Shown here: positions 3,213 to 51,038 of the stretch, in pieces
How positions within the stretch are numbered: position 1 is the stretch's first letter
Layout: each line of letters opens with the position of its first letter
NCBI RefSeq assembly: GCF_035987325.1
Contig: NZ_CP108488.1
Span: 806,001-870,000 of the forward strand
Reading direction: 5' to 3'
Length of the DNA stretch: 64,000 nt
From: Streptomyces sp. NBC_01244
GTDB lineage: Bacteria > Actinomycetota > Actinomycetes > Streptomycetales > Streptomycetaceae
Notes under the pieces: generated by a model
The model's input: the letters and a program-made list of their open reading frames with translations, nothing else
Databases searched by the model: none
What the model was told of the DNA's origin: nothing
Position numbers and translations under genes: made by a program

Positions 3213-3237
3213 AAGGCCATTACATCAGGGTGGGGGC

Positions 3238-28144: not shown

Positions 28145-28401
28145 GGTGCCTCCTTTAGAACCAGGTGAGGGTGAGGGGGAAGGTGGTGGTGGCGGTGGCT
28201 CCGGTGGTGTCGGTGGCGGTGGCGGTGATCTGGAGGGTTCCGGTGGCCCAGGGTTTGCCGGTGATGCGGCCGGTGGTGGTGTCGAGGGTCAGGCCCCAGG
28301 GCAGTCCGGTGGCGGCGTAGCGGACCGGGGGCTTGCCGCCCGTGGTGGTGAGCTGGACGGTGCAGTTCTGGTTGAACTTGCAGCTCTGCGGGCCGGGGTT
28401 G
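28145..28401. repeat. 257-bp perfect inverted repeat, left copy
   Basis: Identical base for base to the reverse complement of 50782-51038. It encodes most of the Ig-like C-terminal domain of the phosphoesterase, its TAA stop and the ribosome site of the downstream MFS gene. Similarity continues with one mismatch to 28412. The pair encloses 22,380 bp. Confidence 0.97.
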
Positions 28402-29515: not shown

Positions 29516-30574
29516 TCACGCCTCGCGGCGGGCCGCTCCGGCGACGGTGATGTTCAGGAACCGGGGCACGGACAGCCCCCGGTCGCGGAAGTCCTCCGCG
29601 ACCGCCGCCCGGACCTCCGTCAGCCGGGCCTCGGGCAGCAGGACCAGCACGCTCCGCCCCGGCCGCTGCCCGGGCGGCCAGGCGCTCAGGGCTCCGGCCC
29701 GGCGGGCGCACCCGACGGCCCGGGCCAGGTCGGCCGTACGGTCCTGCGCGCCGTCGGGGTCCGGCCGCAGGGCCAGCAGCACCAGGCGCGCGCCCGACCC
29801 GGCCGGGTCGAAGACCACGTACCGCTGGCGTTGCCGCCGGGCCTCCGGCCGGGGCACGCCGTCGCCGAGCAGCAGGGCCCTGCCCGGCCGGGCGAAGAGG
29901 GCGCCCCGGCGCAGGGCGTCGTCTCCGTCCGGCAGCGCCTCCGCCATGAGCCGGGCCAGCCGCACCCGGTCCGGGTCCTCGCCCGGCGGTGTGTGGACGT
30001 CGGCCACCGCGAGCGCCACCGCGCAGTCGGCCGCCTCCTCCGTGGCCAGCCCGGCGGCCGCGGTGAGGGAGCCCTGCACGTGCAGGTCGGTCCCGCCCCG
30101 GCCATACCCGGCCCGGGCCAGCGCGCGCAGCAGCGCGTAGGGACGGGCGGCCCAGGCCGGGGTGGCGGGCGGCGGACCGGACAGGGTCAGGGGGAGGTCG
30201 CAGCCGTCCGCCGGGTGGGCCAGGGAGCTGAGCCGTACCACGCCGTCGGCGCGCGGGGCCGCCGCGGCCGCGACCGGCCAGCCGGCCGCGGCGACGAGGC
30301 CCGGGGAGCCCAGGTGGAAGGTGTACGGGGCGCTCCAGACGGCGGCCGGGGGGCGGCCGTGGGCGGCCTCCAGGGCGTAGGCGACCAGGCGGAAGAGGGG
30401 ATCGGCGGTGGCCCGGCGGGCGAGGTCTCCTCCGGTGGGGGCCCCGGGGCCGGGGCCGGCGGCGGCCGGGTCGGGGACGGTGACGGCGGGGACGGCGGGG
30501 ACGGTGACGGCGGGGACGGTGACGGCGGGGACGACGGCGGCGACCGGGCCGGTCCGCGCGCCGGGGCCCGTCAC
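29516..30574 (-). CDS. Degenerate GHMP/galactokinase-like protein
   Basis: Protein of 352 aa. The GTG start at 30574 overlaps the methyltransferase stop (GTGA). After a low-complexity Val-Pro-Ala N-terminus (VPAVTVPAVTVPAVP) comes a region with the layout of galactokinases: RLVAYALEAAHGRPPAAVWSAPYTFHLGSPG (in pieces: AAHGRPPAAVWSAPYTFHLG), then LHVQGSLTAAAGLATEEAADCA where GHMP kinases have a Gly-Leu-Ser-Ser-Ser loop, and a final FRDRGLSVPRFLNITVAGAA. The phosphate-binding serines are not conserved (AAAGLATEE), so it may be catalytically dead or altered. It is last in the synthase operon; a role in sugar handling next to the glycosyltransferase is only a guess. Confidence 0.6.
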   Translation of the reverse strand: MTGPGARTGPVAAVVPAVTVPAVTVPAVPAVTVPDPAAAGPGPGAPTGGDLARRATADPLFRLVAYALEAAHGRPPAAVWSAPYTFHLGSPGLVAAAGWPVAAAAAPRADGVVRLSSLAHPADGCDLPLTLSGPPPATPAWAARPYALLRALARAGYGRGGTDLHVQGSLTAAAGLATEEAADCAVALAVADVHTPPGEDPDRVRLARLMAEALPDGDDALRRGALFARPGRALLLGDGVPRPEARRQRQRYVVFDPAGSGARLVLLALRPDPDGAQDRTADLARAVGCARRAGALSAWPPGQRPGRSVLVLLPEARLTEVRAAVAEDFRDRGLSVPRFLNITVAGAARREA

Positions 30575-32517
30575 AGCTCGTCCTTGCGGGCCAGCATCCG
30601 GTAGGCGTTGCCGCCGTCCGTGCGGCGGGCGGCGGCGCTGCGCAGTCCGTCGAGCACCGCCGCGGCGGCGAAGCAGGGCAGCGAGGCCAGCCGTACGGCG
30701 CCGGTCAGAACGCGCCGGCCGGTGGTGGCCGGGGGCCCCCAGGGGCGGTCCGGGTCGGGGGCCAGCCGGGTCGCGGTCAGGGCCACCGCACCGAAGAAGT
30801 CGTTGCCCTGGTGGGCGGGCCCGTGTTCCTCGGCGAGGACGGTGAAGCCCCGGTCGGCCAGCGCCTCGCGCAGGTTCGAGGAGGGGATCAGGTGCTGGTG
30901 CTGCGGCTGGAACCAGGGCAGCCAGGCCGGACCGAGCAGCCGGGCCATCCGGGACTCGGGGTCGGGGAGTTCGATGGTGAGGTAGCCGCCGGGGGCGAGG
31001 ACGGCGGCCGCCGTGTCCAGTTCGGTGAGCGGGTCCCGGGTGTGCTCCAGGTAGTGGTACATGCTGACCACCTCGTACTGGCCGGCCAGTTTGACCGCGA
31101 ACTCCGGGAACTGGCCCTGGTAGCCCGTCTCCGCCCAGCCGCGTCGCTCGGCCTCGCGGACCCCGTCGCCCATGTCGAGCCCGTCGAAGCGGGTGTCGGG
31201 CCACACGGCGCGTGCCGCGTTGCAGAAGTGGCCGTGTCCGGTGCCCACATCGAGCCAGGACACGGGATCGGTGTGCGGGCGGAGCATTTCGGCCCGGCCG
31301 CGGTAGGCGGCGCCGAGCCGGCCGAACACGGTGGCCGCGCCCTCGCCGCCGCGGCCGTCGTAGAAGTCGCGGTAGTAGAACTCCAGTCCCTCCAGGGAGA
31401 GTCGGGGGTTCTGGAACACGTGCCCGCAGGCTCCGCACTGTTCCAGGGTGAACCGGCCGGGCTTGCCCTGGAGCATGTCGGGCACCCGGACCCGGACGGT
31501 GAGCTGGAGGGAACCGCACCAGGGGCAGTCCGGCCGGCGCGGTTCGAAGAACCGGTCGGTCCCGGCGGCCAGGTCGGCCCGGTACGCCTGGACGGAGGCG
31601 GCCGGGAGGCAGTCGGCCGCCACGGACTCCGGTCGGACCGGCTCGGCCCCCGGCGTACGGGACGTCGCGGCGGCCGTGCTCAGGGCCGCGCCGAGGGAGC
31701 GTACGGGCCGGGCGGCCGTGGCCCGGGCGAGGTCTGCGGGACGCAGGGGTGTGCCGGGCCGCCCGAGGGCGAGGTAGGGCTGGATCCAGTACAGCCCCGC
31801 CGCGGCGGCCCCCCACCGTCCCTGGCGTACGGCGACACCCGCCAGCAGGGCCAGCCCGGCGAGCTGCGCGGCGGCGAGCGCGAGGGGCGGCAGTCCTTGG
31901 GCGCGCAGTTCGGCCGCCCGCGCCGGTCCGGTGGCGGCGGCTCGTGGTCCGCAGCTCAGGGCGGGTGCGATGGCCAGTCCCGTGGCGTCGGCGGCGAACT
32001 CCTTCACGCGCCGGATCACGGCCATGAGGTCCGCCGGAGTGGCGCCCGGGCCCGCCGGGTCCACCCCGGCGCGGGCGAGCACCTCCTCGGTGACGAGCAC
32101 GGCGAACCCGGCGCCGCGCCCCTCGCCGAGCCGGTCCTGCCGGTAGCCGGCCGGGTCGACCAGGCGCAGCAGGCTGAGCACCCGCTCGGCGGGCAGGTCC
32201 CCCGGCAGCAGGTCCAGTACCTGCAGCCCCTCCCGGTCGGCGTGCGCGCAGGCGGCGAGGAAGGTGGCCGTGTCGGGCTCCACCCCGTCGGCGGTGAGCA
32301 GCCGCCACCCGGCGGCGCGCGGTAGCCCGGCGTCCGCGTACGCGGCCATGGGCAGCACCGGGACCGCCCGCAGTCGGCGGGCGGCGCGGACGGTGCCCGC
32401 GCCGAGGGCGGCGAGCAGCAGGGCGGAGGTCCACCGGACGCCGGGCAGAAGGAGGGGCACGGACAGGCGCGCGGAGAGGGGCATCCGGGCGGGGAAAGGG
32501 AGCGGGGAGCGCGTCAT
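30571..32517 (-). CDS. Two-part protein: unknown N-terminal domain plus zinc-ribbon SAM methyltransferase
   Basis: Protein of 648 aa; ATG 32517 overlaps the glycosyltransferase stop (ATGA). Residues about 1-300 are unrecognised and contain two or three hydrophobic stretches (SALLLAALGAGTV; LALAAAQLAGLALLAG; GLYWIQPYLALG). Residues about 328-370 hold a zinc ribbon (CPWCGSLQL ... CGACGHVFQNPRLS). A class I methyltransferase follows with SAM motif WLDVGTGHGHFCNAA at about residue 420, acidic FDGLDMGDG, and SMYHYLEHTRDPLTEL. Such zinc-ribbon methyltransferases act on sugars or glycolipids in polysaccharide and natural-product loci. Placement after a GT1 enzyme suggests O-methylation of the attached sugar or lipid at the membrane. 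Confidence 0.75.
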   Translation of the reverse strand: MTRSPLPFPARMPLSARLSVPLLLPGVRWTSALLLAALGAGTVRAARRLRAVPVLPMAAYADAGLPRAAGWRLLTADGVEPDTATFLAACAHADREGLQVLDLLPGDLPAERVLSLLRLVDPAGYRQDRLGEGRGAGFAVLVTEEVLARAGVDPAGPGATPADLMAVIRRVKEFAADATGLAIAPALSCGPRAAATGPARAAELRAQGLPPLALAAAQLAGLALLAGVAVRQGRWGAAAAGLYWIQPYLALGRPGTPLRPADLARATAARPVRSLGAALSTAAATSRTPGAEPVRPESVAADCLPAASVQAYRADLAAGTDRFFEPRRPDCPWCGSLQLTVRVRVPDMLQGKPGRFTLEQCGACGHVFQNPRLSLEGLEFYYRDFYDGRGGEGAATVFGRLGAAYRGRAEMLRPHTDPVSWLDVGTGHGHFCNAARAVWPDTRFDGLDMGDGVREAERRGWAETGYQGQFPEFAVKLAGQYEVVSMYHYLEHTRDPLTELDTAAAVLAPGGYLTIELPDPESRMARLLGPAWLPWFQPQHQHLIPSSNLREALADRGFTVLAEEHGPAHQGNDFFGAVALTATRLAPDPDRPWGPPATTGRRVLTGAVRLASLPCFAAAAVLDGLRSAAARRTDGGNAYRMLARKDEL

Positions 32518-33689
32518 ACGAGTTCCTCCAACCGGTCGGCCGCGGCGGCGGCCCCGCCGGCCGCGGCGAATGAGGCCTGGATCCGCCGGGCGCCCCGGCG
32601 GTGGCCGGGTTCGTCCAGGACGGCCGTCAGCGCGTCGCGCAGTTCCTCGGCCCTGGTCCTGCCGAACCGCACCCGCACCCCGGCCCCGGCTTCCACGACC
32701 TGCCGGGCGACGATCGGCTGGTCGTCGCGGATCGGGGCGACCACCAGCGGCAGCCCGTGCGCGAGGGCCTCGCAGACGGTGTTGTGGCCGCCGTGGCAGA
32801 CGACCGCGTCCAGGTGGCGCAGCAGCGCAAGCTGCGGGACGCTGTCGCGCCGCAGTACGTTCCCGGGGACGGCACCGACCAGCGCGGCGGGAGCCACCAG
32901 GACCAACTGGACCTCCTTGTCGAGCCGTTCGGCGGCGCCCAGCACCGCACCGTAGAACCGGCCCCCGGCCTCCTGGTTGAGGGTTCCCAGCGAGACGAGC
33001 ACCCGCCGCCGCTCGGGATCCAGCCGTTCCCAGGGGAATCCGGGTACGGACGGCCGGGCCCCGAAGGCCGGACCGACGAAGGCGTAGTGCGGCGGGAACT
33101 TCCGATCCCCGCCGACCAGTTCGCGGCTGGAGAAGACCAGGACCAGCCGCTCCGAGAACCGCGGATCCCACGGCGCCCCGGCCGGCTCGGGATCGGCCCC
33201 GCACTCCGCCAGCAGTCCGGCGATCTGCGCGGCGACCCACTCTCCGACCTTCGGGAAGTCCGCGAAGGGAAGGGTGAGTTCGGCCGAGGTGCTGGCGGAG
33301 GTCACCCAGGGCACACCGAGCCGCCGCGCGGCCACCGGGCCGGCCAGGGCCTGCTGATCGGCGACGACCACGTCCGGCCGGAAGGCGCCGACCGCCCGGA
33401 CCACGCCGGGGAGCATCGCCCTGGCCAGGGGGACCAGCGCCTCCTCCCAGAGGAACCGCAGCGCCCCGACCCCGCGCAGATCGCGCCAGCGGGCGTGCAT
33501 CATCGCGTAGTCGCCGCCCGCCTCCGCGCCGGCGGAGAGGATCCGGGCGTGCTCGGGCAGCAGCCGGGCCAGCGCCCCGGGCGGGCCGGTCCAGGCGACC
33601 TCGTGGCCGCGGGCGGCCAGTTCGGCGCCGACCGCCACGGTCGGATTGACGTGCCCCGCGAGCGGCGGCACCGTGAAGAGCACCCTCAT
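32514..33689 (-). CDS. GT1 (UGT/MGT-type) glycosyltransferase
   Basis: Glycosyltransferase of 391 aa with a GT-B fold. The N-terminal acceptor domain opens with MRVLFTVPPLAGHVNPTVAV (catalytic histidine in GHVNP, about H13). The donor domain has the nucleotide-sugar motif CHGGHNTVCEALAHGLPLVV followed by APIRDDQP. This subfamily glycosylates macrolides, carotenoids, phenols and lipids. It is cotranscribed with two Pfa-like megasynthases and overlaps both neighbours by 4 bp, so the synthase product is probably a glycolipid. Confidence 0.88.
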   Translation of the reverse strand: MRVLFTVPPLAGHVNPTVAVGAELAARGHEVAWTGPPGALARLLPEHARILSAGAEAGGDYAMMHARWRDLRGVGALRFLWEEALVPLARAMLPGVVRAVGAFRPDVVVADQQALAGPVAARRLGVPWVTSASTSAELTLPFADFPKVGEWVAAQIAGLLAECGADPEPAGAPWDPRFSERLVLVFSSRELVGGDRKFPPHYAFVGPAFGARPSVPGFPWERLDPERRRVLVSLGTLNQEAGGRFYGAVLGAAERLDKEVQLVLVAPAALVGAVPGNVLRRDSVPQLALLRHLDAVVCHGGHNTVCEALAHGLPLVVAPIRDDQPIVARQVVEAGAGVRVRFGRTRAEELRDALTAVLDEPGHRRGARRIQASFAAAGGAAAAADRLEELV

Positions 33690-34570
33690 CGGACCAGCGC
33701 TCCCGCCCGCGGTCGCACCGTCGACGTCGGGGCCGCCGCCGTCGCCGGGCGTGCCCCCGCCGCGGCCGTGGCCGTCGCGTCGAGGTGGGCGAGTACGGCC
33801 GCGCGCAGCGCTCCGCTGTTCTCCTTGAGCACGTCGTGCCCGAGGCCCGGCAGGATCTCGACGGCGGTGACCTGCGGGGCGTGCCGGGCCAGTTCCAGGG
33901 CCCCCGGGACCAGTTCGGAGTGCTCGCCGCAGACGATCAGGACGGGGCAGCGCAGTGCGGCGTAGTCGGCCGGGGTGAAGGTGCGGCTCGCGGCGATGTC
34001 GTCGATGAGGGTGGTGCGGTTGAGCAGGTCGTCGGCGATGGCCGTGAGGTTGGCCGCCTTGCGCAGCCGCAGGGTGAGCAGCTCGGCGGGTACCGCGCTG
34101 TCCTCGAGGCTGAGGGCGGCCGCCGACAGGGTGTCCACCATGTTGTCCACCCAGGCTCCGCTGAGCGGGGGTTCGAGCAGAGTGAGCCCGGCGACCAGGT
34201 CGGGCCGGGCGAGGGCGGCGTGCAGCGCCAGGGTCCCGCCGTAGCTGTTGCCCACGAGGTGCACCCGGCGGTGTCCGAGGCCGAGCGCGCCGAGCAGGGC
34301 GAAGAGGTCCCGTACGGCGGTGCGGCTGTCGTAGCCGGTGGCCGGGCGCTCGGTACGGCCGTGGCCGCGCAGGTCGTAGAGGACCACCTCGTGCCCGCCC
34401 CGGGCCACCGGGACGGCCAGGGGGCAGTAGAAGGAGGAGAGGTTGTCGACGACCAGTCCGTGCAGGAACACGACCACGGGGCGGTCGGCGGTGTCGGGGC
34501 CGGCGGCGTGCGCGGTGGCCGGGAGCTGTTGGACGTGGAAGCGGACGGCGCCCGCGGGAACGAAGGCCAT
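33686..34570 (-). CDS. Alpha/beta hydrolase of the synthase operon
   Basis: Hydrolase of 294 aa starting at ATG 34570. The oxyanion HG is in FLHGLVVDN, the nucleophile in VGNSYGGTLALH (about S109), the acid probably in CGEHSEL and the histidine in LGHDVLKENS. The fold family includes chain-releasing esterases and thioesterases. Neither megasynthase carries a thioesterase domain, so this enzyme is the best candidate for product release or transacylation. A C-terminal 25-residue Ala/Thr/Pro tail follows. It sits 7 bp after the discrete ACP gene. Confidence 0.85.
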   Translation of the reverse strand: MAFVPAGAVRFHVQQLPATAHAAGPDTADRPVVVFLHGLVVDNLSSFYCPLAVPVARGGHEVVLYDLRGHGRTERPATGYDSRTAVRDLFALLGALGLGHRRVHLVGNSYGGTLALHAALARPDLVAGLTLLEPPLSGAWVDNMVDTLSAAALSLEDSAVPAELLTLRLRKAANLTAIADDLLNRTTLIDDIAASRTFTPADYAALRCPVLIVCGEHSELVPGALELARHAPQVTAVEILPGLGHDVLKENSGALRAAVLAHLDATATAAAGARPATAAAPTSTVRPRAGALVR

Positions 34571-34577
34571 GGCGGGA

Positions 34578-34943
34578 TCAGCCGTCCGATCCGGTCGCGG
34601 CCGCGGCGCGGGCGCCGCTCGCCGAGGCACGGGTGCGGGTGGCGTGCGTGAGGGAGGCGTGGGTGAGGGAGGCGTGGGTGATCCGGCCGATGTGCGTGAC
34701 GAGTTCGCCCACGGACATGGCGAGGATGCCGTCCATGTCCTTCTCGGACAGGAAGCCCATCAGGTCGACTTCGGCGCCGTAGCGGTGGTGGAGGAGTTCG
34801 GCGAGGGCGACGAACTCGATGCTCTCCAGGGCGAGATCCTCGTTGAACGTCGTCTTCATCGTGACCTCGTCCGCGAGGAGGTGCTCGTCACCGACGATCT
34901 CCACGAGCATGCCGGTGATCTCGGCGAGGATGTCAGCTGCCAT
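34578..34943 (-). CDS. Discrete acyl carrier protein
   Basis: ACP of 121 aa. Residues 1-85 form the four-helix carrier; the phosphopantetheine serine is S41 in LALESIEFVALAELL. Glutamate replaces the usual aspartate of the DSL motif, a common variant. Residues about 88-121 are a basic, repetitive tail (HASLTHASLTHATRTRA) that is unusual for an ACP and may be unstructured. Its ATG overlaps the second megasynthase stop by 11 bp. The PPTase domain at the end of that megasynthase could activate it. Confidence 0.88.
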   Translation of the reverse strand: MAADILAEITGMLVEIVGDEHLLADEVTMKTTFNEDLALESIEFVALAELLHHRYGAEVDLMGFLSEKDMDGILAMSVGELVTHIGRITHASLTHASLTHATRTRASASGARAAAATGSDG

Positions 34944-37900
34944 GACTGGTCTCCGTGAGGTGGAAGGGGACGGGGGACGGAGTCGCGGGCCGGTCGGTCC
35001 AGGCGACCACGTGGTCGGGGTGGGCCAGTGGCGCGTCCGCGAGCGCGAGCAAGGTGGTGCGCACCGGATACGCGTGCCCGTCCGGGGAGAGCACCCGCAG
35101 CTCGCCGGAGCCCGGGTCGCCGGTGGTCCGCCAGTCGCGCGGGCGTCCTGCGAGTCCGGTTCCGGCGGCTTTGGCGGCCGCCTCCTTGGCGCACCACAGG
35201 GCGGTGAGCGCGGCCGGGAGTCCGGCGCCCTCCTGGGCCGCCAGCCGCTCGGCCAGGGCGAGTTCGCCCGGCGCGAGGGCGATGCGGATGAGCGCGTCGG
35301 GGTCGGTGGTCACGTGTTCCACGTCGATGCCGACCGGCAGACCGGGGTGGGCGAGGGCGACCGCGATCCGGTCCTTGTGGGCGATCGTCAGGTGGACTCC
35401 CCCGGCCAGGGCGCCCCCGGCGAAGGGCCGCCCGGCCGGGTCGTTGCCGATCGGCACCTCGGCGGGGAAGACCGGCCCGGCTCCGCCGTCCCAGAGCAGG
35501 TGGCGCAGCGCGTCCTTGGCGGCGATCCGGCCCAGCAGCCAGGGTGCCCGGGCCCGCGGCCCCAGCCGCTCGTAGGCGGCGCGCTCGGCGGCGCCGAGGT
35601 AGCGGCGCATCACCAGCTCCTGCGAGGCGGGGTCGGTCCAGCGGCGGCGGGCCAGGCACCAGCCTTCGGGACGGGGTTCGCCGATGCCGCAGACCTCCGG
35701 GGTGAACTTCATCGGCCAGACCCGCTCGTCGGCGCCGAAGCGGCGGTACGTCCAGCCGTCGATCCGGGCCCATACCCGGCCGTCGGCCCGCAGCAGCTCG
35801 ATGTCGCCGCGCACGGTGACATCGCGGACTTCGCGGATCCGGGCCGTGGCCGAGACGAGCTCGTAGGGGGCCGGCGGGGGCCCCGAGAAGCGGATGCCGT
35901 CCACGGTGGCGGGGAACACCAGCCGGTCCACGGGAAGCCGCAACTGCATCCAGTGCCCGAAGAGCTGCCCGGCGGCGTCGAGCAACGCCCCCGGGTCGGG
36001 CAGCGCCCGCAGCACGCCCCGGATGCCGTCCGAGCCGACGGCCCGCACCTCGTGCACCCCGGCGAAGCGGGGGCCGTGGAACATCCACCGGTCCCGGTAG
36101 AGGGCCTCGGCGCTGACCGGGGCCGGCCGGGGCTCGCTCAGCGGGGTCGTGTCGGGGCCGGGCAGGGATCCGTAGCGTTCTCCGAGGAGGACGAACACGT
36201 CGGCGTACTCCCCGAGGGTCACGCGCACCCGCCCGGATCCGGCGGGCCGTACGGTGACCTCCAGGTCGAGGGCCGGCTCCACGGGGAGCCAGCGCAGGGC
36301 CCGTACCCGCTCGTAGCCGATGACGGCCAGGCCGGGCGGGGCGTCCCGCAGCGCGGCCTCGGCCGCCAGCTCCAGCATCGTCGTCATGGGGACGACGGGG
36401 AACCGGTCGGAGTCCTCCGTCCATCCGTCGGGCTGCAGGTAGACGCAGTGGTCCCGTACGTAGGGCAGCGTGGCGAGGGAGAGGCGCAGGGTGTGGGTCC
36501 GGCTCTGGGACTCCGGCTGGGACTGAGGCTGTGGCTGTGGCTGGGGCTGTGGCTGGGACTCCGGCTCGGGCTGTCCTTCGGTGAGGATCGCGTCCAGGGC
36601 GGAGAGGAGGACCGGCCGGGGGTCCGCGGGCGCCGGGGCGGTCGGGGTGGGGGCGGTCGGGGTGGTGGCCTGTGGCAGGAGGCCGGTCAGGGCGGCGCGT
36701 GCGGCCTCGCCGAGGCGGACCAGCGGCGAACCGAGGTCCAGGAGCACGGCTCGCCCGGCCGCCCGCGCTGCCGGTGGTCGGGCAGGTCCGGCAGGTCCGG
36801 CGCAGGCCCGGTCCGGGCCTCCCGTTCCGCCGGGGGCCGGGGCCAGGCGGTCCCAGCGCGGGGCGTGGCCCTCGGTCCACAGGGCGGCGCAGGTGCGCCG
36901 CAGGGCGGCGAGGCCGGTGAGCCGGGGCGAGGAGGCCGCCACCGAGAAGTGGGGGCGGTCGCGCAGGGTGTCTTCGACGAAGCCCGGCAGGCTGCCCGGG
37001 CCCAGCGTGACGAAGCCCCGGACGCCCGCGTCCTCGTACAGCCTCGTCGTCAGCGCACGGAAGCGGACCGGCTCGAGCAGATGGCGGACCACGAGCTCGC
37101 GCACCGCTTCGGGCTCCGGGGGGAACGGCGCGCAGGTGGTCGCCGACCAGAGGGGCAAGGTCCCGGGCTGGAGGGGCAGTCGGGCGAAGGCGGCGCGCAC
37201 CTGGCCGAGGTAGGGTTCCCACATGGGCGTGTGGAAGCCGGAACGGAAGGGGAGTTCCTGGCCGAGGACACCCTCGGCCTTCAACCGCTCGAGAGCGGTG
37301 GCCACTTCGGCGGGAGTCCCGCAGACGACCGACTGGTGCGGGCAGTTGTCGTGGCTGACCACCACGCCGTCCAGTCCGTGCAGCGCGGCCTCCGCCCGCC
37401 GGGTCCCGCACCCCAGTGCCGCGTAGACCAGGTCGGGCACCTTCACCGAACCGGGTCGCAGCGAGTCCAGGAAGGTGTCGGCCGCGTCCTGCCGGTACAT
37501 CCCGGCGGACACCATCGCCGCCCACTCCCCCAGGCTGTGGCCCGCCAGCACATCGGCCTGGATGCCGAGTTCGGGCAGCACCCGGGCGAGGAAGCGGCCC
37601 GTCGCGATGGCGTCCAGGGCCCGCTCCGTCAGCTCCTCGCCCCTGGTCAGCCGGGGCCGCTCCAGTCCGAGCCGGTCCGCCACATCGTCCAGCGCCGGGG
37701 CGAACTCGGGCTCCAGGCCCGGGAACAGGAAGGCGAGCCGGCCTCCCAGCGGCGCGGGCGTGAACCACACCTCCCCGCGCCCGCGCCACGGCCTGCCGCG
37801 CGCCACCACCTTCGCGGCGAGCGCGAGCCGCTGGGGCGTGGGACCCACGACGGCGAGCCGGCAGGACCCGTCGCCGCCGGACACCGGGGAGCCGGATGCG

Positions 37901-39645: not shown

Positions 39646-42600
39646 GCCGTCCACTCCCCTCGCGCCCGTCGGCCGCCATCAGGACCACCTGTACGTCGGT
39701 CCCGTGCGCGAGTTCGGCGAGGAACGCGGCGCCGCCCGCCTCCGGGTCGATGAGCGCGATGCCCCGGCGGGTGTACGCGCGCGCCAGTTCGGGGCTGACC
39801 ATGCCGCCCGCCTCGGCGGACCAGGGGCCCCAGTCAAGGGAGAGCACGCGGCCCGGGAAGTTCTCAGCCCAGATGTGCGCGAGGCCGTCGAGGGCGTCGT
39901 TGGCGGCGGCGTAGTCGGTCTGCCCCCGGTTTCCGTACACGCCCGCCACGCTGCCGAACAGGGCGAGGAAACGGGGTGCGGGAGCCGTGCCGTGCTCGGC
40001 CGCGGCGGCGGCGAGGTGGCGCGCGCCGGTCACCTTGGTGGTGAACACCTCGGCGAAGACGGCCGGTTGCTTGTCGCGGAGCAGTCCGTCGTTCAGGGTC
40101 CCGGCTCCGTGCACGATCCCGTCCAGCCGGCCGTGGCGGGCCCGCACGGCGGCCACGACGCCTCGTACCGCCTCCTCGTCCGTGACGTCCGCGCAGTGGT
40201 AGCCGACGGACGCGGCCACGGTCGCGAGGGCGGCCAGGGCGGCCCGCACCTCTCGCTCGGCGAGGATCCGCGAGGCCGCGGCCTCGATCTCCGCAGGGGT
40301 GCGCAGGCCGGTGGCGATCAGTGCGGCACGCAGGGCGACGCGGTCGGCGGCGTGCCCGAACTCGTCCGCTTCGGCAACTGGTCGAGGCGTGCGCCCCATC
40401 AGCTCTACGTGGCATCCGGTGGCCCGGGCCACCGCCAGGGCGGTCCGGGCGGTGATCCCGCGGGCCCCGCCGGTGAACAGGACCACCGAGTCGGCATCGA
40501 GGGGCGGCGTTCCGTCCCCGGGGGCGAGCGGTGCGGGTACCGGCCTGGGGGTGACCCGTAGGCCCTCGGCGGTGTAGGCGACGGAGGCGGGGGCGTGGGC
40601 CTCCACGGACGTGGTGGCGCCGGCCGGCTCGGCCGGCTCGGCCGGTTCGCAGCTCAGCTCGGCGAGGAGCTGCGCCGCGATCCGCTCCGGGTCCTCCTTG
40701 GAGTGGACCTCCACGGCGCGGATCAGCTTGCCCGGATATTCGAGGGAGGCACTGCGGGCGAAGCCGTGCACTCCCGCTCCGGCGGCCCCGCCGCGGACGG
40801 TGACCAGCAGGAGCCGGTGCACACCGCCGGTCAGGGCCCGCTGCAGCCCGGGAAAGCGCTGGGGCAGGACGGGTTCCGTTCCCGGCCGCAGGGCGGCGAG
40901 ATCCAGGACCGCGTCGAACCCGGCCTCGAACCCGGCGTCGAACCCGGCGTCGTCTTCGGCCAGTTGCCGGACGTCCGCCCCGTGGGCCCGCAGGGCCCGG
41001 GTGAGCGCGGGCACGACCCCCTGACCGTCCCCGGCCTCTCCGACGAGCCCGATCCGCAGACCCCGCAGGGCCTCCGGGTCCCCGGGCGCGGGCGGCAGGG
41101 CGTGCAGCTCCACCCGGAGGCGGCCGAGCGCGGGCGGGGCCGCCGGCGCTGCCGTGGCCTCCCCTTCGACGGGCGGGGCCTCGGGCCGGGCGGTGTGGCC
41201 GGAGACCCAGTCCACGATGCCGCGCAGGGTCTTGATCCGGGACAGCTCCTCGATCGCGGACTCGGCGGAGCCGCCCGCATCCCGGGGCAGGCCGATCCGG
41301 TCGGCCAGGGCGCCGATGATCTCGACCCGCTTGATGGAGTCGATGGACAGGTCCGCTTCCAGGTCCAGCTCGGGAGCGAGCATGTCCCGCGGGTACCCGG
41401 TCCGGGTGTGGACGATCTCCACGATCACGTCCATCACCTCCTCGGCGGACCGTGACTCCGCACGGGCCGCGCCCCCGCCGCCGCCCATGTCCCCACGGCC
41501 GTCACCCCCGGGCAGGCCGTCCGCCGGGGCCTCGCCGCCTGGCATCCCCGATCCCGAGACCACACCGCCGGGCATCCCACCCCCGGGCATCCCACCCCCG
41601 GGGGCCGCACCACCGGGGGCCGCACCACCGGGGATCCCGGTCCCCACGCCCGCGCCGCCGGGCGCCCCGACCTCCAAACCCACGCCGCCGGGCGCCCCGG
41701 AAGCCGCGGCGAAGCCATCGGGCATCCCGGAGCCCGTGGCCCCGCCGCCCACCAGCCCGGAACCCGGGACGACACCGTCAAACGCCGGCCCACCCGGAGC
41801 CGTCGGCCACGGTCCGGTTGCTCCGGGACCCGCGGCCGCGCCCCCGACCCGGGCGGCGGACCAGGAGGCGTCGGAACCAGTGACCGCACCGTCAACGGCC
41901 GCCCCACCAGGAGCCGCCGACCACGCACCGAACCCCCCGACACCGGGATCCACGCCCACCGGGGCCACTCCGTGGGCACCGTGCCCGGCCCCATCGGCGC
42001 CCCCGGGCACGCCTCGGCCGTCCGGCCGGGGCTCGGACCAGGGGGCAGCCCAAGACGCGCCCTGGAGCGTCCCCGGGACGCCCTCCGCTCCCTGCGGGCC
42101 CGTGAACCCCTGCCCCCGGCCCCGGTCCGGGGGCGCCCCCACGTCCTGCGAGTCCGCGGAGCCACGGGTGGCACCCAGGAGGGAAGGAGGGATCGCGCGG
42201 GCCGGGCCGGTGGTGACCTCGAAGTGCCCGGCCGGAGCCGGCCCGCTCCAGGACGGCGCCGTCGCGGTCGACGCAAGGTAGCCGATCATGACGTCCCGCT
42301 GCGCCTGGACCAGTTCGCGCGATCCGCGAAGGTACTCCAGGACCGCCTCCTCCCGGCGATCCGCCGGGGCAGGTGCGGTGTGCTCGGCCATGTGACCGGT
42401 GCGAGCGCCCGCCCAGGAGGTCGGGCCCGCCGGCCGCTCAAGGCCCGCGCCGGGGCCGCCGTTCGCGGTCCAGAGGTACCGGCCATCCGTACCCCCCGCG
42501 ACCGAACCGGCCGCCGGCCCACCGTTCCCGGAGAGGAACGTCGCCCCCTCGGCCGCCGGAAGCCCGGCCCGGCCGTCGTGCGGGTCCGCGTACCCGCCCA

Positions 42601-45600
42601 TCGGGCCTCCCACCGGAGCGGAACCTCCACCCGAGCCACCCGCACCCGGCCCCCCGCCCGGCAGCCGGTGTCCGCCTCCGGAAGGACCACCACTCCCCGA
42701 ACCGCCCACGCCAGAGCCCGCGCCCGCACCCGCACCCGCGCCCTGCGACCAAGGCCCACCCCCGCCAGGGGCAGCGCCGTGCCCGTTGCTCGCGAGGCGG
42801 CCGTTCTCGCGGCCGTCCGCCATGGCCGCCTCCCGGGCGGAACTCCAGGCCGAGCCGGCCTCCGCAGGGCTGCCGGCCGGCAGCCAGTGCCCGACCCCGG
42901 CAGGGGCCGGCAGGCTCGCGGGGCCGGCGTTCGCGTGGGCCCCCGACTCGGCGGAACTCCCCACCTGACCGGTGCCGTTCTTCGGCTGCGCCATCTGATG
43001 GGCTCCCTTTCCTTCGGGTACCGCGACGTGGACCCGGCGGGCCGGGCGGAGGCCGCCGGGGACGGGGTTGCCGTCCCGGGTGCGGACCAGGTGGCCGTCC
43101 ACCAGCCAGCCCGGGCGGCGTGGAGCGCGCTCGGGGAGCGGGGAGGTTCGGCCGCGGAACAGGGCTTCGGGTGCCACCGGAACGCCGGCCGCGGCCAGTT
43201 CGGCCAGCGCCGTGACCAGGCGGAGCAGCCCGTGCTCGCCGGGCACGTCCAGCGGCACCGCCGTGTGGGGCCGGTCGCCCAGGATGCGGCCGACGAGACC
43301 GGACAGGACCCGGCCCGGTCCGGCCTCCACGAAGGTCCGGACTCCGGCCGCGTACATGTGCTCCACCTGCTCCACGAACCGGACCGGCTCGGCGACTTGA
43401 CGGGCCACCAGGTCCCGTACCGCATCGGCGGTCACCGGGTACGGGCCGGCCGTCGTGTTCGACCAGACCGGGACGGCGGCGTCGGCCAGTTCCGTCCCGG
43501 CGAGTTCCTCGGCCAGGGCCGTGGCCGCCCCCGCCACCACCTCGCTGTGGAACGCGCAGGCCACGGGGAGCGGGGCCGCCGTCAGGCCCGCCTCCCGCAG
43601 AGCGGCCACCGCATCGGCCACGGCGGCGGCCGGCCCTGAAATCACGCACTGCCGGGGTGCGTTGTGGTTCGCGATCACGCATCCGGCACGCGCGGCGATC
43701 TCCCGTACCTCTTCCGGCGCGGCCGTCACCGCCGCCATCGACCCCGGATCCGTCCCGGCGGCCGCGAGGATGGCTTCGGCCCGGCGCGCGCTCAGCCGCA
43801 GCAGGCTCTCCTGGTCCCACACCCCCGCCGCCCACAGCGCGGTGAGCTCGCCGTACGAGTGCCCGGCCACGCAGTCCGGCCGTACGCCCAGCTCCCCCAG
43901 CAGCAGGTGCGCCGCCGAGCCCACCAGCCCGAGGGCCGGCTGGGCCACCCGGGTGTCGGTGACCGCGGCCCGCTGGGCGGTCCGCCCCCGTGCGGTGAAG
44001 GCCGCCGGGGGGAACATCGCGGAGACCACTGCCGCCGGCGCCGCGTCCAGCAGCTCCCGCAGGGGCGGGAAGCCGGTGAACAACTCCCCCAGCATGCCGG
44101 ATCGCTGGCTGCCCTGGCCGGGGAAGAGGAAGGCCACCTGGCCTGGCTCCGCCGTGTCCTCCCGTACGTGGACCCCCTCGCCCGGCGTGAAGGCCCGCGC
44201 AAGCTCCAGCCGGGCCGCCAGCTCGTCCAGGTCGGCGGCCACGACCGCGACCCGTACCGCACCCGCCCCGGCCGCGGCCTCCGCGGCGAGGTCCCGCAGC
44301 GCCCACGGACGCCCGGCCGCGTCGTTCTCCTCCAGCCTGGCCGCCAGCCGGGCCATCGCCCGGCCCGCCGCACGCCGGTCCTCGCCGCGGAAGCAGAACA
44401 GTTCGGCCGGCCATTCCTCCACGCCGTGCCGGGGCTCCTCCGCTCCCGCGTAACCGGTCAGCACCGCGTGGTAGTTGGTGCCGCCGAACCCGAAGGCGCT
44501 CACCCCGGCGATCCGCCGTTCGGCGGGCACCGCCCACGGCCTGGCCCCGGTGTCGAAGGAGAAGGGGCTGGTCTCCGCGTTCCAGGCCGGGACCGGTGCG
44601 TCGAGGTGCAGGGTCGGCGGCCGTACGCCCGAGTGGACCGCCCGGACCGCCTTGATCAGTCCGGCGAGCCCGGCCGCGCACTTGGTGTGCCCGATCTGCG
44701 ATTTCACCGAGCCCAGGGCGCAGGCTCCGGTGGCGGCGCCGGACTCGGTGAACAGGGCTGTCAGTACGGCCAGTTCGGTGGTGTCGCCGACCACGGTGCC
44801 GGTGCCGTGCGCCTCGACGAGGCCGACCTCGCCGGGGTTGATCCCGGCCCGTGCGTAGGCCCGGTCCAGGGCCCTGCGCTGCCCCTCCGGCCGGGGTGCG
44901 GTCAGACCGAGGGAGCGTCCGTCGCTGGCGGCTCCGACCGCCTTGATCACGGCGTACACCCGGTCGCCGTCCCGCTCCGCGTCGGCGAGCCGCTTCAGTA
45001 CGAGCGCCCCCACCCCCTCCCCGAGGGCGATCCCGTCGGCGGCCGCGTCGAAGGGCCGGCAGCGGCCGCCCGGGGACAGTGCTCGGACCGAGGAGAACAG
45101 CAGGTAGTCGTTGATGCCGTTGTGGACGTCAGCGCCCCCACACAGCACCATGTCGCTGTCCCTGTCGCGCAGTTGGCGGCAGGCAAGGTCGAGCGCGGCC
45201 AGCGAGGAGGCACAGGCGGCGTCGACCGTGCAGTTCGCGCCGCCGAGGTCCAGCCGGTTCGCGACCCGGCCCGCGATGACGTTGGCGAGCACACCGGGGA
45301 AGGAGTCCTCGGTGAGTCGCGGGAGCTGCTCGTCCAGTTCGGGCGGGAGCTCGCCCAGGTATCCGGGGTACAGCGCGCGCAGCCCGTACGCGCCCGCCAG
45401 CTCGGTGCCGGCTTCCGCGCCGAACACGACCGAGGTCCGGGACCGGTCGAACTCCCGCTCCTTGCCGTACCCGGCGTCCGCCAGGGCCCGCGCGGAGATC
45501 TCCAGGGCTAGCAGTTGCACCGGTTCGATCCCGGCCAGCGAGGCCGGCGGGATGCCGTGCGCGAGGGCGTCGAAGGGCATCGGGCCGAGGAAGCCGCCCC

Positions 45601-48184
45601 AGCGGGACGGGGTGCGTTCGCCCGCCCGTGCCGGGTCGGGGTCGAAGTGGAAGGCCGGATCCCAGCGTTCGGCCGGGACCTCGGTCACGGCGTCGCTCCC
45701 GTCCAGGATCCGGGCCCAGTAGGCGGCGAGGTCCGGCGCGCCGGGGTAGGCGCACGCCATGCCGACCACGGCGACGTCCAGCGGCTCGGGCCGTGCGGCG
45801 TCGGTGGCGGCAGCGGCCATCGCGTCCGCCGTACCGCCTTCGGGGTCCGGGCCGGCGAGTTCCCGGGCGCGCTGCCTGAGCAACTCGGTCGCCCCTTGGG
45901 TGACTTCGGCGTGCAGGGCGGCGATCGTGGTGGTCCCGGAGCGCAGGGTGGCGGCCTGACCGAGCATGAACAGCCCCTCGGAGCCCTGTTGTTCCTCGCT
46001 CACCGGCTCCAGTCCGGCGCCGTCCACCCCGCGCCGCAGGCCCTTGCTGGCGATCCGGAGCCGTCCCAGGTTGAGCCGCTCCAGCTCCTCCCACACCTCG
46101 CGCGGCTCGGCGCCGCTTTCCGCGAGCCGCTGCCGGGTGGCCTCGAAGGTGTCCGCGTACGGGGTGAGCGCGCAGCGCGTGGCGTGCCCGGGCGCGGTGT
46201 GCAGCAGTACGGTGTCGGCGCACTCCAGCGCCGCCCGCTGGAAGCGGGGCACGACCGCGCCCGCGGCCACCGCTTCCTCGGTGAACAGGTACGCGGTGCC
46301 CATGAGCACCCCGATGCGCGCACCCCGTTCGGCCAGCGGGGCCGCCGCGGCGGCGGCCATCGCGGCGGAGCGGGCGTCGTGGACTCCTCCCGCGAACAGC
46401 ACGTCCAGCGCGGCCGGTTCGGGGCAGGAGAGCAGCAGCTCGATCTGCTCCTCCCACAGCGGGAACGAGGCGCGCGGCCCGACGTGGCCCCCGCATTCCA
46501 GCCCCTCGAACACGAACCGCCGTGCCCCGTCGGCGAGATACCGCTCCAGCAGGCCCGGCGAGGGCACGTGGAGATGGGTCCGGGTCCCGGCTGCCTCCAG
46601 CGGAGCCGCCTGCCCCGGGGTGCCGCCCGCGATGATCGCGTACGGCGGACGCACCTCGGCGACGGCCGCGAGCTGCTCGGCCCGCAGCTCGGCGGGGGCG
46701 AAGCCGAGCATCCCCACGCCCCAGGGCCGCTCCCCGAGCCGCGCGGCGGTCTCGGTGAGGAGGCGGCGCACCTGCGGCCCCTCCATGACCGCGAGCGCCA
46801 GGTAGGGGACCCCGCCCCCGGCGGCCACCGCTTCGGCGAAGGCCGCCTGGTCGCTGACCCGGGTCATCGGCCCCTGCGCCACCGGGAGCGGCCGCCCCGG
46901 GCCGTGGCCGCCCCCCAGCGGCCGGGCCCGTACGACGGCCTCCAGGTGTCCCGCGACGGCCGCCCGGATGGCTTGGAGGATGCCTCCGGTCGTCCGGTGG
47001 CGGACGGCCAGCCGGGCCGCCGCGGCCCCGTCCTGGCCGACCGGGAGCAGTTGTGTCCGCAGGTCCCGGGCGCCCAGCAGGCCGGCGGCCGGGCCCTGCG
47101 GCGGGGTCAGGTCGGGGCGCGCGTAGACCCGGTGGCCCTGCACCAGCTTCGTTTCGGAGCCGTCCATGGCCCGTACGGCCGCGGCCACTTCGGCGGGCAG
47201 CCCGGCCTCTCCCTCGGGCGTGAGGGCCAGTTGTACGTCGACCAGCACGCCGGCGGCTCCGCCCGCGACTGCCGCGGCCGCGGTGTGCGGCCCGATCCCG
47301 CCGTATGCCCGTACGGGCAGTCCGAACGCGGGGTCGGCGAGCAGCTGTTGGAGGAGTACGAAGGTGGTGGTCCCGCCCACCCGGCCGCCCGCCTCGTGCC
47401 CCTTGGCCACGAGCGCCTCCGCTCCCGCGGCCACCGCGAGCGCGGCCTGGGCCGGATCGGTGACCTCGGCCCACACCCGGGGCCGCCCCGCGGCGGCCGC
47501 CCAGCCGGCCACCCCGTCCGGGGTGTGGGCCGCGGGGTCGGCGAGCAGCACGGTGTCCACCTCGGCCGGCAGCTCCTCTGGGCCGATCGGGCAGCCCTCG
47601 GGCACCCGTACGCCGTAGCGGCCGGCTCCGAGACGCCGGGCGATCTCGGCCACACCGCGCCGCGCCGCCCCGGCGTCCCGGCCGAGGTCGAGCAGGCCCA
47701 GGGCGCCGGCGCGCTCCGCGGCGGTGACGATCCGCGGGTTGGGCTCCCCGAACGGGCTGACCGCGACGACAAGGTCGCGGTCGGCGGCGCGGAGGCGCCC
47801 GGGCCGCCCGGGCCGCCACGCGGAAGGCGACGGCTCGATCGACCCGGGAGCCGACCGCTCAGTCGGCTCGGCCCGCTCCGCCCGCCCTGTTGGCCCTGTT
47901 GACCCTGTTCGCCCTGTTGGCCCTGTTGGCCCTGTTCGCCCTGTTGGCCCTGTTGGCCCTGTCCGCTCGGAGCCCGACGGCCCGGTCCGCTCCCCCAGCG
48001 GCGCGGGCTCCTCCCCCGATGGTCCGGTCGTCACGGATCGTGCGGGCCCGACCGGCCGGACGGGCCGCGGAGGCCGCGGGGTGCGGGAAGGCCGCGCCGT
48101 GCGCGGAGCCGGCGGGGGCTGCTGGGGCTGCTGCTGCGGAAGGGCAGGCGAGGGCTGGGGGGACGGCTCGGGTTGGGGGGACAC
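39638..48184 (-). CDS. Pfa-like synthase subunit 1: NPD-NPD-KS-AT-ACP-KR
   Basis: About 2848 aa from GTG 48184, chosen for AGGAG five bases upstream; the in-frame ATG 48214 lacks a ribosome site. Order: Pro-rich and collagen-like N-terminus (1-135); two tandem FMN-type nitropropane-dioxygenase/PfaD-like domains (about 140-360 with KGHEAGGRVG, and 430-710 with EGLECGGHVGP and LMGTAYLFTEEA); KS (800-1235, C991 in DAACASSL); AT (1345-1660, S1443 in GHSYGE); a helical VLEYLRGSRELVQAQRDVM segment; a Gly/Pro/Ala-rich linker; one ACP (S2283 in LSIDSIKRVEI, the Pfa signature); and KR (2560-2848, FTGGARGIT, Y2758). In classical Pfa synthases the enoyl reductase PfaD is separate and ACPs are multiple; here the ER-like domains are fused at the front and there is one ACP. 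Confidence 0.9.
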   Translation of the reverse strand: MSPQPEPSPQPSPALPQQQPQQPPPAPRTARPSRTPRPPRPVRPVGPARSVTTGPSGEEPAPLGERTGPSGSERTGPTGPTGRTGPTGPTGRTGSTGPTGRAERAEPTERSAPGSIEPSPSAWRPGRPGRLRAADRDLVVAVSPFGEPNPRIVTAAERAGALGLLDLGRDAGAARRGVAEIARRLGAGRYGVRVPEGCPIGPEELPAEVDTVLLADPAAHTPDGVAGWAAAAGRPRVWAEVTDPAQAALAVAAGAEALVAKGHEAGGRVGGTTTFVLLQQLLADPAFGLPVRAYGGIGPHTAAAAVAGGAAGVLVDVQLALTPEGEAGLPAEVAAAVRAMDGSETKLVQGHRVYARPDLTPPQGPAAGLLGARDLRTQLLPVGQDGAAAARLAVRHRTTGGILQAIRAAVAGHLEAVVRARPLGGGHGPGRPLPVAQGPMTRVSDQAAFAEAVAAGGGVPYLALAVMEGPQVRRLLTETAARLGERPWGVGMLGFAPAELRAEQLAAVAEVRPPYAIIAGGTPGQAAPLEAAGTRTHLHVPSPGLLERYLADGARRFVFEGLECGGHVGPRASFPLWEEQIELLLSCPEPAALDVLFAGGVHDARSAAMAAAAAAPLAERGARIGVLMGTAYLFTEEAVAAGAVVPRFQRAALECADTVLLHTAPGHATRCALTPYADTFEATRQRLAESGAEPREVWEELERLNLGRLRIASKGLRRGVDGAGLEPVSEEQQGSEGLFMLGQAATLRSGTTTIAALHAEVTQGATELLRQRARELAGPDPEGGTADAMAAAATDAARPEPLDVAVVGMACAYPGAPDLAAYWARILDGSDAVTEVPAERWDPAFHFDPDPARAGERTPSRWGGFLGPMPFDALAHGIPPASLAGIEPVQLLALEISARALADAGYGKEREFDRSRTSVVFGAEAGTELAGAYGLRALYPGYLGELPPELDEQLPRLTEDSFPGVLANVIAGRVANRLDLGGANCTVDAACASSLAALDLACRQLRDRDSDMVLCGGADVHNGINDYLLFSSVRALSPGGRCRPFDAAADGIALGEGVGALVLKRLADAERDGDRVYAVIKAVGAASDGRSLGLTAPRPEGQRRALDRAYARAGINPGEVGLVEAHGTGTVVGDTTELAVLTALFTESGAATGACALGSVKSQIGHTKCAAGLAGLIKAVRAVHSGVRPPTLHLDAPVPAWNAETSPFSFDTGARPWAVPAERRIAGVSAFGFGGTNYHAVLTGYAGAEEPRHGVEEWPAELFCFRGEDRRAAGRAMARLAARLEENDAAGRPWALRDLAAEAAAGAGAVRVAVVAADLDELAARLELARAFTPGEGVHVREDTAEPGQVAFLFPGQGSQRSGMLGELFTGFPPLRELLDAAPAAVVSAMFPPAAFTARGRTAQRAAVTDTRVAQPALGLVGSAAHLLLGELGVRPDCVAGHSYGELTALWAAGVWDQESLLRLSARRAEAILAAAGTDPGSMAAVTAAPEEVREIAARAGCVIANHNAPRQCVISGPAAAVADAVAALREAGLTAAPLPVACAFHSEVVAGAATALAEELAGTELADAAVPVWSNTTAGPYPVTADAVRDLVARQVAEPVRFVEQVEHMYAAGVRTFVEAGPGRVLSGLVGRILGDRPHTAVPLDVPGEHGLLRLVTALAELAAAGVPVAPEALFRGRTSPLPERAPRRPGWLVDGHLVRTRDGNPVPGGLRPARRVHVAVPEGKGAHQMAQPKNGTGQVGSSAESGAHANAGPASLPAPAGVGHWLPAGSPAEAGSAWSSAREAAMADGRENGRLASNGHGAAPGGGGPWSQGAGAGAGAGSGVGGSGSGGPSGGGHRLPGGGPGAGGSGGGSAPVGGPMGGYADPHDGRAGLPAAEGATFLSGNGGPAAGSVAGGTDGRYLWTANGGPGAGLERPAGPTSWAGARTGHMAEHTAPAPADRREEAVLEYLRGSRELVQAQRDVMIGYLASTATAPSWSGPAPAGHFEVTTGPARAIPPSLLGATRGSADSQDVGAPPDRGRGQGFTGPQGAEGVPGTLQGASWAAPWSEPRPDGRGVPGGADGAGHGAHGVAPVGVDPGVGGFGAWSAAPGGAAVDGAVTGSDASWSAARVGGAAAGPGATGPWPTAPGGPAFDGVVPGSGLVGGGATGSGMPDGFAAASGAPGGVGLEVGAPGGAGVGTGIPGGAAPGGAAPGGGMPGGGMPGGVVSGSGMPGGEAPADGLPGGDGRGDMGGGGGAARAESRSAEEVMDVIVEIVHTRTGYPRDMLAPELDLEADLSIDSIKRVEIIGALADRIGLPRDAGGSAESAIEELSRIKTLRGIVDWVSGHTARPEAPPVEGEATAAPAAPPALGRLRVELHALPPAPGDPEALRGLRIGLVGEAGDGQGVVPALTRALRAHGADVRQLAEDDAGFDAGFEAGFDAVLDLAALRPGTEPVLPQRFPGLQRALTGGVHRLLLVTVRGGAAGAGVHGFARSASLEYPGKLIRAVEVHSKEDPERIAAQLLAELSCEPAEPAEPAGATTSVEAHAPASVAYTAEGLRVTPRPVPAPLAPGDGTPPLDADSVVLFTGGARGITARTALAVARATGCHVELMGRTPRPVAEADEFGHAADRVALRAALIATGLRTPAEIEAAASRILAEREVRAALAALATVAASVGYHCADVTDEEAVRGVVAAVRARHGRLDGIVHGAGTLNDGLLRDKQPAVFAEVFTTKVTGARHLAAAAAEHGTAPAPRFLALFGSVAGVYGNRGQTDYAAANDALDGLAHIWAENFPGRVLSLDWGPWSAEAGGMVSPELARAYTRRGIALIDPEAGGAAFLAELAHGTDVQVVLMAADGREGSGRRG
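47883..47963. repeat. 9-bp coding tandem repeat (nine copies)
   Basis: Nine head-to-tail copies of CCCTGTTNN, with a 27-bp higher-order rhythm in the NN positions, encode a Gly-X-Thr collagen-like stretch near the N-terminus of the first megasynthase. The period is a multiple of three, so copy changes keep the frame. Confidence 0.9.
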
Positions 48185-48679
48185 GGACGCTCCTCTTCCA
48201 GTGCGGTGTGACATGGCGCAGTGCGGGACGGAAGACCGGGAAGGCGTGGGAGAAAGGCGGCGGACGAGACGCCCTCCCGCCGGGGATCCGGGGTGGACGG
48301 CACGCGAAACGGCCGGGCGATGCGTCGGGGCAGGGTTGAACGGTGGTCAAATTCCCTGGCGCCGCGATGCATCGTGCGGTGACGGCCTCGCACTGTCAAC
48401 GGCCATCCGGAGCCGTTCACTTCGCACCCCTGACGGCACCCGCCCACCCGGACGACCTCCCGGGCGCGCCGTCGGCACGCTCCCGCCAAGGCCGTGGCCT
48501 GCGGTGTTGCGCCGGGACGGCCCGTCTCCGGCCCGCCGGCCGGCGCGCCCGCGGCGCCCGCGCTCATGCCGCATGGGTATGAGTTGTCACCAGTCCGGCA
48601 TGAACACCTTTGCGGAGTCTGATGGTTGTTCACCCGCCGCGGTCTTACAGGTACACCCTTGCCCGGTTACCGTCCGGTC
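48185..48679. other. 495-bp divergent regulatory gap between synthase operon and LysR gene
   Basis: No convincing gene is seen here; small open frames lack ribosome sites and Streptomyces codon bias. It contains a LysR-type dyad at 48336-48350, a shared CCCTGGCGCCGC block at 48354-48365, and separated inverted arms TGAACA (48601) and TGTTCA (48627) close to the regulator's start. It must hold the promoters of both the synthase operon and the regulator, but no clear -35/-10 pair was found. Confidence 0.6.
48336..48350. promoter_or_regulatory. LysR-type box upstream of synthase operon
   Basis: TTGAACGGTGGTCAA is a TTGA-N7-TCAA dyad containing the T-N11-A core of LysR binding sites. It lies 152 bp before the synthase start and is followed after 3 bp by CCCTGGCGCCGC. 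The same two elements recur before the gene at 49715. Confidence 0.6.
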
Positions 48680-51028: not shown

Positions 51029-51038
51029 AGGAGGCACC
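50782..51038. repeat. 257-bp perfect inverted repeat, right copy
   Basis: Reverse complement of 28145-28401 with no mismatch by direct reading. It covers the Ig-like domain, the TAA stop and ten more bases including AAAGGAGG, which here has no start codon behind it. Similarity extends to 50771 with one mismatch. Confidence 0.97.

Follow-up and report, generated by a model that had tools for sequence, protein, structure and literature searches.

A Type P-like secondary-lipid synthase operon of Streptomyces with a second ketosynthase-acyltransferase pair and glycolipid-type tailoring genes

What is made by an operon that joins two lipid-type megasynthases to a hydrolase, a glycosyltransferase, a methyltransferase and a kinase-like gene, and is such an operon a new kind of system? 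The question is raised by seven consecutive minus-strand genes with overlapping ends (29516-48184) in a 64,000-nucleotide stretch, hereafter the window (C1:806001-870000), of the 10.0 Mb genome of Streptomyces sp. NBC_01244. Coordinates and domain matches agree with a first-pass annotation that described seven overlapping genes and their domains; its interpretation, an unusual self-activating synthase for a glycosylated, methylated lipid, is supported in part only. The operon is real and conserved and, as far as searches of the open-licence PubMed Central (PMC) literature go, uncharacterised. It is a variant of the Type P-like secondary-lipid synthases, not a new kind of system, and we consider it probable that its synthase iteratively builds a long-chain lipid, which is then glycosylated and sugar-methylated. 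The two megasynthases comprise NPD, ketosynthase (KS), acyltransferase (AT), acyl carrier protein (ACP), ketoreductase (KR), dehydratase (DH) and phosphopantetheinyl transferase (PPTase) domains; comparison is made below with the chain-length factor (CLF) of related systems and with polyketide synthases (PKSs).

39638-48184, minus strand: gene 1, megasynthase A, 2848 amino acids from the GTG at 48184, NPD1-NPD2-KS1-AT1-linker-ACP-KR
46925-47770, minus strand: NPD1, FabK/PfaD-like region without the GGH histidine (AKGHEAGGRVGG)
45830-46924, minus strand: NPD2, FabK-type enoyl reductase with the conserved FEGxECGGH
44456-45778, minus strand: KS1, PfaA-like ketosynthase, nearest Type P
43277-44140, minus strand: AT1, malonyl-type acyltransferase (GHSYGE, Arg at Ser+25, CAFHS)
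41288-41428, minus strand: ACP, single copy (LSIDSIKRVEI)
39818-40486, minus strand: KR (FTGGARGIT)
34933-39654, minus strand: gene 2, megasynthase B, 1573 amino acids, KS2-AT2-DH-PPTase
38065-39543, minus strand: KS2, intact Cys-His-His, own clade apart from KS1, PfaC-KS and CLF
36925-37587, minus strand: AT2 (GHSLGEW and FHTP, Ser and His kept; Leu at Ser+25, Arg at Ser+26)
35545-36486, minus strand: DH, polyketide-type dehydratase (MFHGP, LLDAAGQ)
35101-35337, minus strand: PPTase core fused to the DH (GIDVE, WCAKEAAAK)

In a tree of 51 KS domains, KS1 groups with the Type P ketosynthases (support 94/85), represented by two sequences, that of Beijerinckia indica, named Type P in print, and that of Methylosinus L065, assigned by likeness. 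These join the PfaA-type ketosynthases at 99/98, and modular PKS and PfaC-KS domains are separate from the KS1 group. The proposed secondary-lipid ancestry is thus borne out for KS1, and the KS domains did not fall inside modular type I PKSs, the outcome that the first-pass annotation had named as contrary to its view. With KS1 among the Pfa ketosynthases and with KS, ACP and KR domains present in the cluster, the operon belongs to the Pfa-like secondary-lipid synthases in the broad sense. KS2 forms a clade of its own (100/100), the placement of which is weak (78/49); its origin as a recent copy of KS1 was rejected because it is excluded from the KS1, Type P and PfaA group at 99/98, and its identity as a PfaC-KS or CLF because it lies outside both groups in the KS trees. 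The earlier of these held 67 rows and omitted the truncated KS2 of L047; from the 51-row tree the CLF rows, L093_487 and L091_21555 are missing as well, as is every row of L009, L022, L041, L048, L069 and L088. In a tree of 62 AT domains AT1 groups with Type P (96/88), its link to PfaA-type acyltransferases being weak (82/39), and AT2 forms its own clade on a long branch, separate from the PfaBC acyltransferases, as which it was also considered and rejected.

Domain searches placed the KS of gene 1 at residues 813-1204, the AT at 1362-1637, the KR at 2577-2799 and, at 19.8 bits and so slightly below the Pfam cut-off of 20.8, the ACP at 2263-2309, all counted from an upstream ATG at 48214; a long low-complexity linker separates AT1 from the ACP. 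The start is most likely the GTG at 48184, preceded by GGAAGAGGAG, which coincides with the right-hand end given by the first-pass annotation. The best NCBIfam model on the protein is PfaA (TIGR02813, 875.6 bits, below its cut-off of 1010.1). One ACP in gene 1 and a discrete ACP gene are found in place of an ACP array, as had been described. The Pfam family NMO gave no match in gene 1 at 0.001, and the NPD call rests on a match to the FabK-type model TIGR03151 (residues 444-779) and on alignment to the B. indica protein, itself matching NMO. When NPD motifs were sought in the window and 23 further loci, the GGH histidine was present in all 23 NPD2 rows recovered and in none of the 22 NPD1 rows. 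Judged from these sequences, NPD1 is probably not a working reductase; two working enoyl reductases are unsupported, and of the earlier claim that an enoyl-reductase-like domain is duplicated the presence of two NPD domains stands, a duplicated enoyl reductase being doubtful because the histidine is missing from every NPD1 recovered. Ahead of NPD1 and close to the N-terminus, gene 1 contains nine-base tandem repeats (47847-47972) whose translation is a collagen-like run of Gly-Pro-Thr.

Gene 2 matches KS, AT, PS-DH and ACPS domains. Cys-His-His is retained in both KS1 and KS2, and no CLF is therefore evident, as first noted. The acyltransferases differ in an arginine, which is at Ser+25 in 121 of 121 AT1 sequences and in 0 of 115 AT2 sequences; 33 of the latter, the window included, carry Arg at Ser+26, and the statement that AT2 plainly lacks the malonyl arginine was softened for this reason. 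The PPTase motifs are intact in the window protein, making self-activation plausible here. Among the 120 protein B relatives listed from 521 matches, 82 lack the PPTase pattern W-x-[AVSG]-K-E in their last 330 residues, so that the self-activation proposed at first is not general in the family. The pattern-less relatives are largely Actinomadura and Spirillospora by name and, as their region still aligns, their PPTase may have decayed. Two gene 2 relatives from Streptomyces sp. (P0332 and P0347) carry the names 'type I polyketide synthase 1' and 'type I polyketide synthase 2', as if taken from a cluster that had been described on purpose.

The five remaining genes supply the free ACP, the candidate releasing enzyme and the tailoring functions.

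34578-34943, minus strand: discrete acyl carrier protein (LALESIEFV)
33686-34630, minus strand: alpha/beta hydrolase, candidate releasing enzyme (GNSYGG)
32514-33689, minus strand: GT1 glycosyltransferase, macrolide/YjiC/OleD-type by family match
31648-32517, minus strand: N-terminal part (about 290 amino acids) of the methyltransferase protein, hydrophobic helices, possible membrane anchor
30571-31647, minus strand: zinc-ribbon S-adenosylmethionine-dependent methyltransferase, model closest to MtmC, KijD1 and TcaB9
29516-30574, minus strand: galactokinase homologue without substrate signature or ATP-site motifs

By its model the methyltransferase most resembles these three deoxysugar C-methyltransferases, in a fold comparison that speaks for the methyltransferase domain (residues 328-648) only. 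For the N-terminal part no Pfam family was found and sequence matches in the PDB were at chance level only; weak Pfam matches, 4HBT_3 at 0.038 and another at 0.38, each occurred in one of ten members. The last protein, first called GHMP-like, can now be identified as a galactokinase homologue (profile match to galactokinase 6tep at 3.7e-28), one without galactokinase motifs. Neither the GEHTDY-type signature nor GGGFGG occurs in any of 21 aligned rows or of 120 listed homologues, and the ATP-site GAGLSSSA reads AAGLATEE in the window; GLSS remains in four of the 21 rows (L021, L022, L036, L089) and in none of the 120. A working galactokinase is unsupported with these key motifs missing. In L070, which belongs to another family, a wax ester synthase/DGAT gene (2081-3481) follows the galactokinase homologue and hints at extra acylation.

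The arrangement is common to many Streptomyces and some relatives. The seven-gene order was checked with sixteen domain probes in 43 loci, all from a single protein B scan of named genomes; the probes all lie in order in 26, and the other 17 are each interrupted by a contig end, as judged from contig ranges, which makes the operon arrangement more than chance. Among named relatives, those nearest to protein B come from Streptomyces; two Yinghuangia loci and one of Actinomadura rudentiformis are among the 26 complete ones. With a threshold of 1e-15, a DH-PPTase match is present in 85 of 295 same-genus genomes (own genome included; few candidates were scored per genome, and misses are possible) and in 3 of 149 genomes of a phylum sample, again counting its own. 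The 85 comprise 21 at no less than 63% identity, own included, and 64 with a best identity of about 37-46%. This divergent class was followed in 15 loci, 14 from 13 of the 64 genomes (L069, L075-L087) and one on a plasmid (L060). Gene 1, gene 2, the ACP, the hydrolase and the glycosyltransferase are in order in all 15; the methyltransferase is found in nine, and neither its N-terminal part nor the galactokinase homologue has a match in any of them. Immediately behind the glycosyltransferase, three more genes were scanned: two encode ABC transporters and one an FkbM methyltransferase. The constant partners of the synthase are thus the ACP, the hydrolase and the glycosyltransferase, and late tailoring or export varies. 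Two divergent-class matches, L060 and H2, come from plasmid records, those of Streptomyces sp. NBC_00984 and Streptomyces sp. NBC_01243. The NBC_00984 cluster has a transposase gene behind it and a group II intron gene on its upstream side; the pathway may thus be a mobile one.

Domain content, motif states, KS and AT ancestry and linkage, all read from sequence, suggest the following model, for which a glycosylated, methylated lipid, as the first-pass annotation had it, is the most economical product. The built-in PPTase would activate the ACPs, AT1 would load malonyl units and KS1 would elongate the chain on the single ACP of protein A. The growing chain would be reduced in each cycle by the KR, by NPD2 and, in trans, by the DH of protein B, and would become long and saturated if Type P, with its C22-C26 chain, is a guide. 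KS2-AT2 and the free ACP would serve one acyl group in particular: a starter or, in the reading that we prefer, the finished chain as it leaves, in which case a last, partly reduced extension might leave a 3-hydroxyl. Following release by the hydrolase, the GT1 enzyme would add a sugar to the hydroxyl or carboxyl of the chain and the methyltransferase, perhaps membrane-anchored, would methylate that sugar, with the apparently inactive galactokinase homologue serving as a scaffold or regulator. Chain length, saturation, glycosylation site, methylation target and the roles of KS2-AT2, the free ACP and the pseudokinase are what we infer in this model. More broadly, and only tentatively, the operon may stand for a widespread actinobacterial glycolipid class in which an Ars-type synthase gained a KS2-AT2(-ACP) chain-transfer unit of altered acyl pocket, and in which the galactokinase homologue, its active site lost, and the histidine-less NPD were taken on as structural or regulatory partners; our estimate for this class was lowered by the AT2 arginine result.

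Several observations weigh against the model. Besides the 82 relatives without the PPTase pattern, six of the 120 listed protein B relatives (1035-1247 amino acids) have a KS and no AT2 motif, protein B of L070 has AT2 without KS2, and Thermomonospora L049 gives no match to the free ACP or the methyltransferase, the gap between its called genes being 150 nucleotides. As KS2, AT2, the free ACP and a working PPTase are not constant, the off-loading role of KS2-AT2 is only a preference. The competing view, that KS2-AT2 and the free ACP load a starter or a second malonyl unit, is a serious contender, if short of an even chance. Loading acyltransferases of modular PKSs may lack the arginine, and AT2 is without Arg at Ser+25 throughout, unlike AT1, yet the Arg at Ser+26 in a part of the family, the window included, blunts this argument; the intact KS2 triad fits loading too. 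The separate retention of AT2 in L070 and of KS2 in the six relatives speaks against a loading unit, as does a plain saturated chain, which needs no special starter.

Other readings change the product itself, and each is less probable. It is unlikely that the megasynthases form an iterative PKS whose product is a partly reduced polyketide, for instance a polyene or enediyne-like core, glycosylated afterwards. MGT-type glycosyltransferases do accompany macrolides, and the DH-PPTase end is also found in enediyne PKSs; enediyne PKSs, however, hold KS-AT-ACP-KR-DH-PPTase in one polypeptide, whereas here the domains are divided over two proteins with two NPD domains, and KS1 sits in the PfaA/Type P group of a tree that contains no named enediyne KS. 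We think still less of a phenolic-lipid (alkylresorcinol/alkylpyrone) pathway like that of Azotobacter with its type III PKS encoded elsewhere, to which the Type P affinity of the closest sampled synthase relatives would point. The genome has one PF00195 match above cut-off and a second below, but the former, at C1:351 kb, is some 0.48 Mb away from the operon; no type III PKS family match occurs among the seven operon and seven flanking genes, and the hydrolase and glycosyltransferase occupy the place of two KAS III-like annotated genes in B. indica. Least probable is a pfa-type synthase of polyunsaturated fatty acids for membranes, with the sugar genes unrelated: the TIGR02813 score and the position of KS1 in a PfaA-containing group agree with it, but the cut-off of that model is not reached, there is no CLF, only one ACP and one DH, the NPD is fused, and all 15 divergent loci examined carry a linked glycosyltransferase.

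The genes of the operon are closely packed. From the gene coordinates, genes 1 and 2 overlap by 17 nucleotides and gene 2 and the ACP gene by 11; the ACP and hydrolase genes overlap by up to 53 (longest open reading frame), and the remaining three junctions by four each. Upstream lies one divergent gene.

48626-49573, plus strand: LysR-family regulator, candidate operon regulator

A 346-nucleotide inverted repeat (arms 28145-28490 and 50693-51038, 94% complementary and 22.2 kb apart) flanks the operon and the LysR gene. The two arms encode C-terminal He_PIG domains, one in a phosphoesterase-family protein and one in another He_PIG protein, and no other near-full copy of the repeat was found in the genome. 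Evidence for an inversion switch is mixed: the two copies within a locus are 93.5% identical here and 88.1% identical in L021, against 76-80% in L013, L014 and L035.

If our model is correct, many Streptomyces hold genes for an unnamed long-chain glycolipid. The DH-PPTase match is present in just under three in ten of the same-genus genomes sampled, and searches of the open-licence PMC literature brought up no product for it. The altered sites of NPD1 and AT2 and the motif-less galactokinase homologue furthermore pose testable questions on the control of loading, release and tailoring.

As to known systems, a characterised cluster with this gene order, which the first-pass annotation had named as decisive against it, was not found in the open-licence PMC literature as far as its available excerpts extend (cited here: PMC3098273, PMC13291983, PMC4314083, PMC4882568, PMC4824345, PMC6274091, PMC4210621). 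With pfaABCD and the actinobacterial Type L the operon shares the larger KS1 group and the PfaA model. Classical pfaABCD differs in the KS-CLF pair of PfaC, the second KS here lying outside both the PfaC-KS and CLF groups, in four to six tandem ACPs in PfaA against one, and in a separate pfaD, the NPD being fused to gene 1 and only one DH being present here. The hgl (Type F) synthase of heterocyst glycolipids, set apart by description and not by sequence, is likewise Pfa-like and passes its alkyl chain into a glycolipid, but its hglC is described as KS-CLF-AT. The Ottowia thiooxydans hybrid cluster, compared from its partial description (PMC13291983), has a pfaD-pfaA fusion, no KS-CLF pair and a glycosyltransferase, and unlike this operon is coupled to PKS-nonribosomal peptide synthetase genes. 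Type M, according to Shulse and Allen 2011, occurs in Frankia, Actinosynnema, Renibacterium and Streptomyces avermitilis, with a product given as unknown and a PPTase near the synthase; being actinobacterial with a PPTase close by, it is possibly the same family, a likeness drawn from the text description alone, and none of its hosts is named among the 120 protein B matches listed.

The closest system is Type P, to which the same paper assigns B. indica and Azotobacter vinelandii, with behenic acid (C22) as product; in A. vinelandii it is encoded by arsABCD and underlies the phenolic lipids of the cysts. Our reference was B. indica pBIND02 (L061), whose NPD-NPD-KS-AT-ACP-ACP-KR protein is collinear with gene 1 and whose separate DH-PPTase protein is the same fusion that ends gene 2; Methylosinus L065 also has both. 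The fused NPD-NPD-KS-AT-ACP-KR protein and the DH-PPTase are thus shared with Type P, as represented by B. indica and Methylosinus and not by Azotobacter itself, so neither fusion is new: the NPD in front of the KS, once thought unusual, is not, and the fusion of PPTase to DH is confirmed without being unusual. The LysR gene recalls the LysR-type regulation of Azotobacter. This operon departs from Type P in that KS2-AT2 precedes DH-PPTase, one ACP is accompanied by a free ACP, the type III PKS genes of Type P and the two KAS III-like genes of B. indica are missing, and a hydrolase, a GT1 glycosyltransferase, a methyltransferase and a galactokinase homologue are added. What is new is therefore the diverged KS2-AT2 pair, the free ACP and the glycolipid-type tailoring that replaces the type III PKSs.
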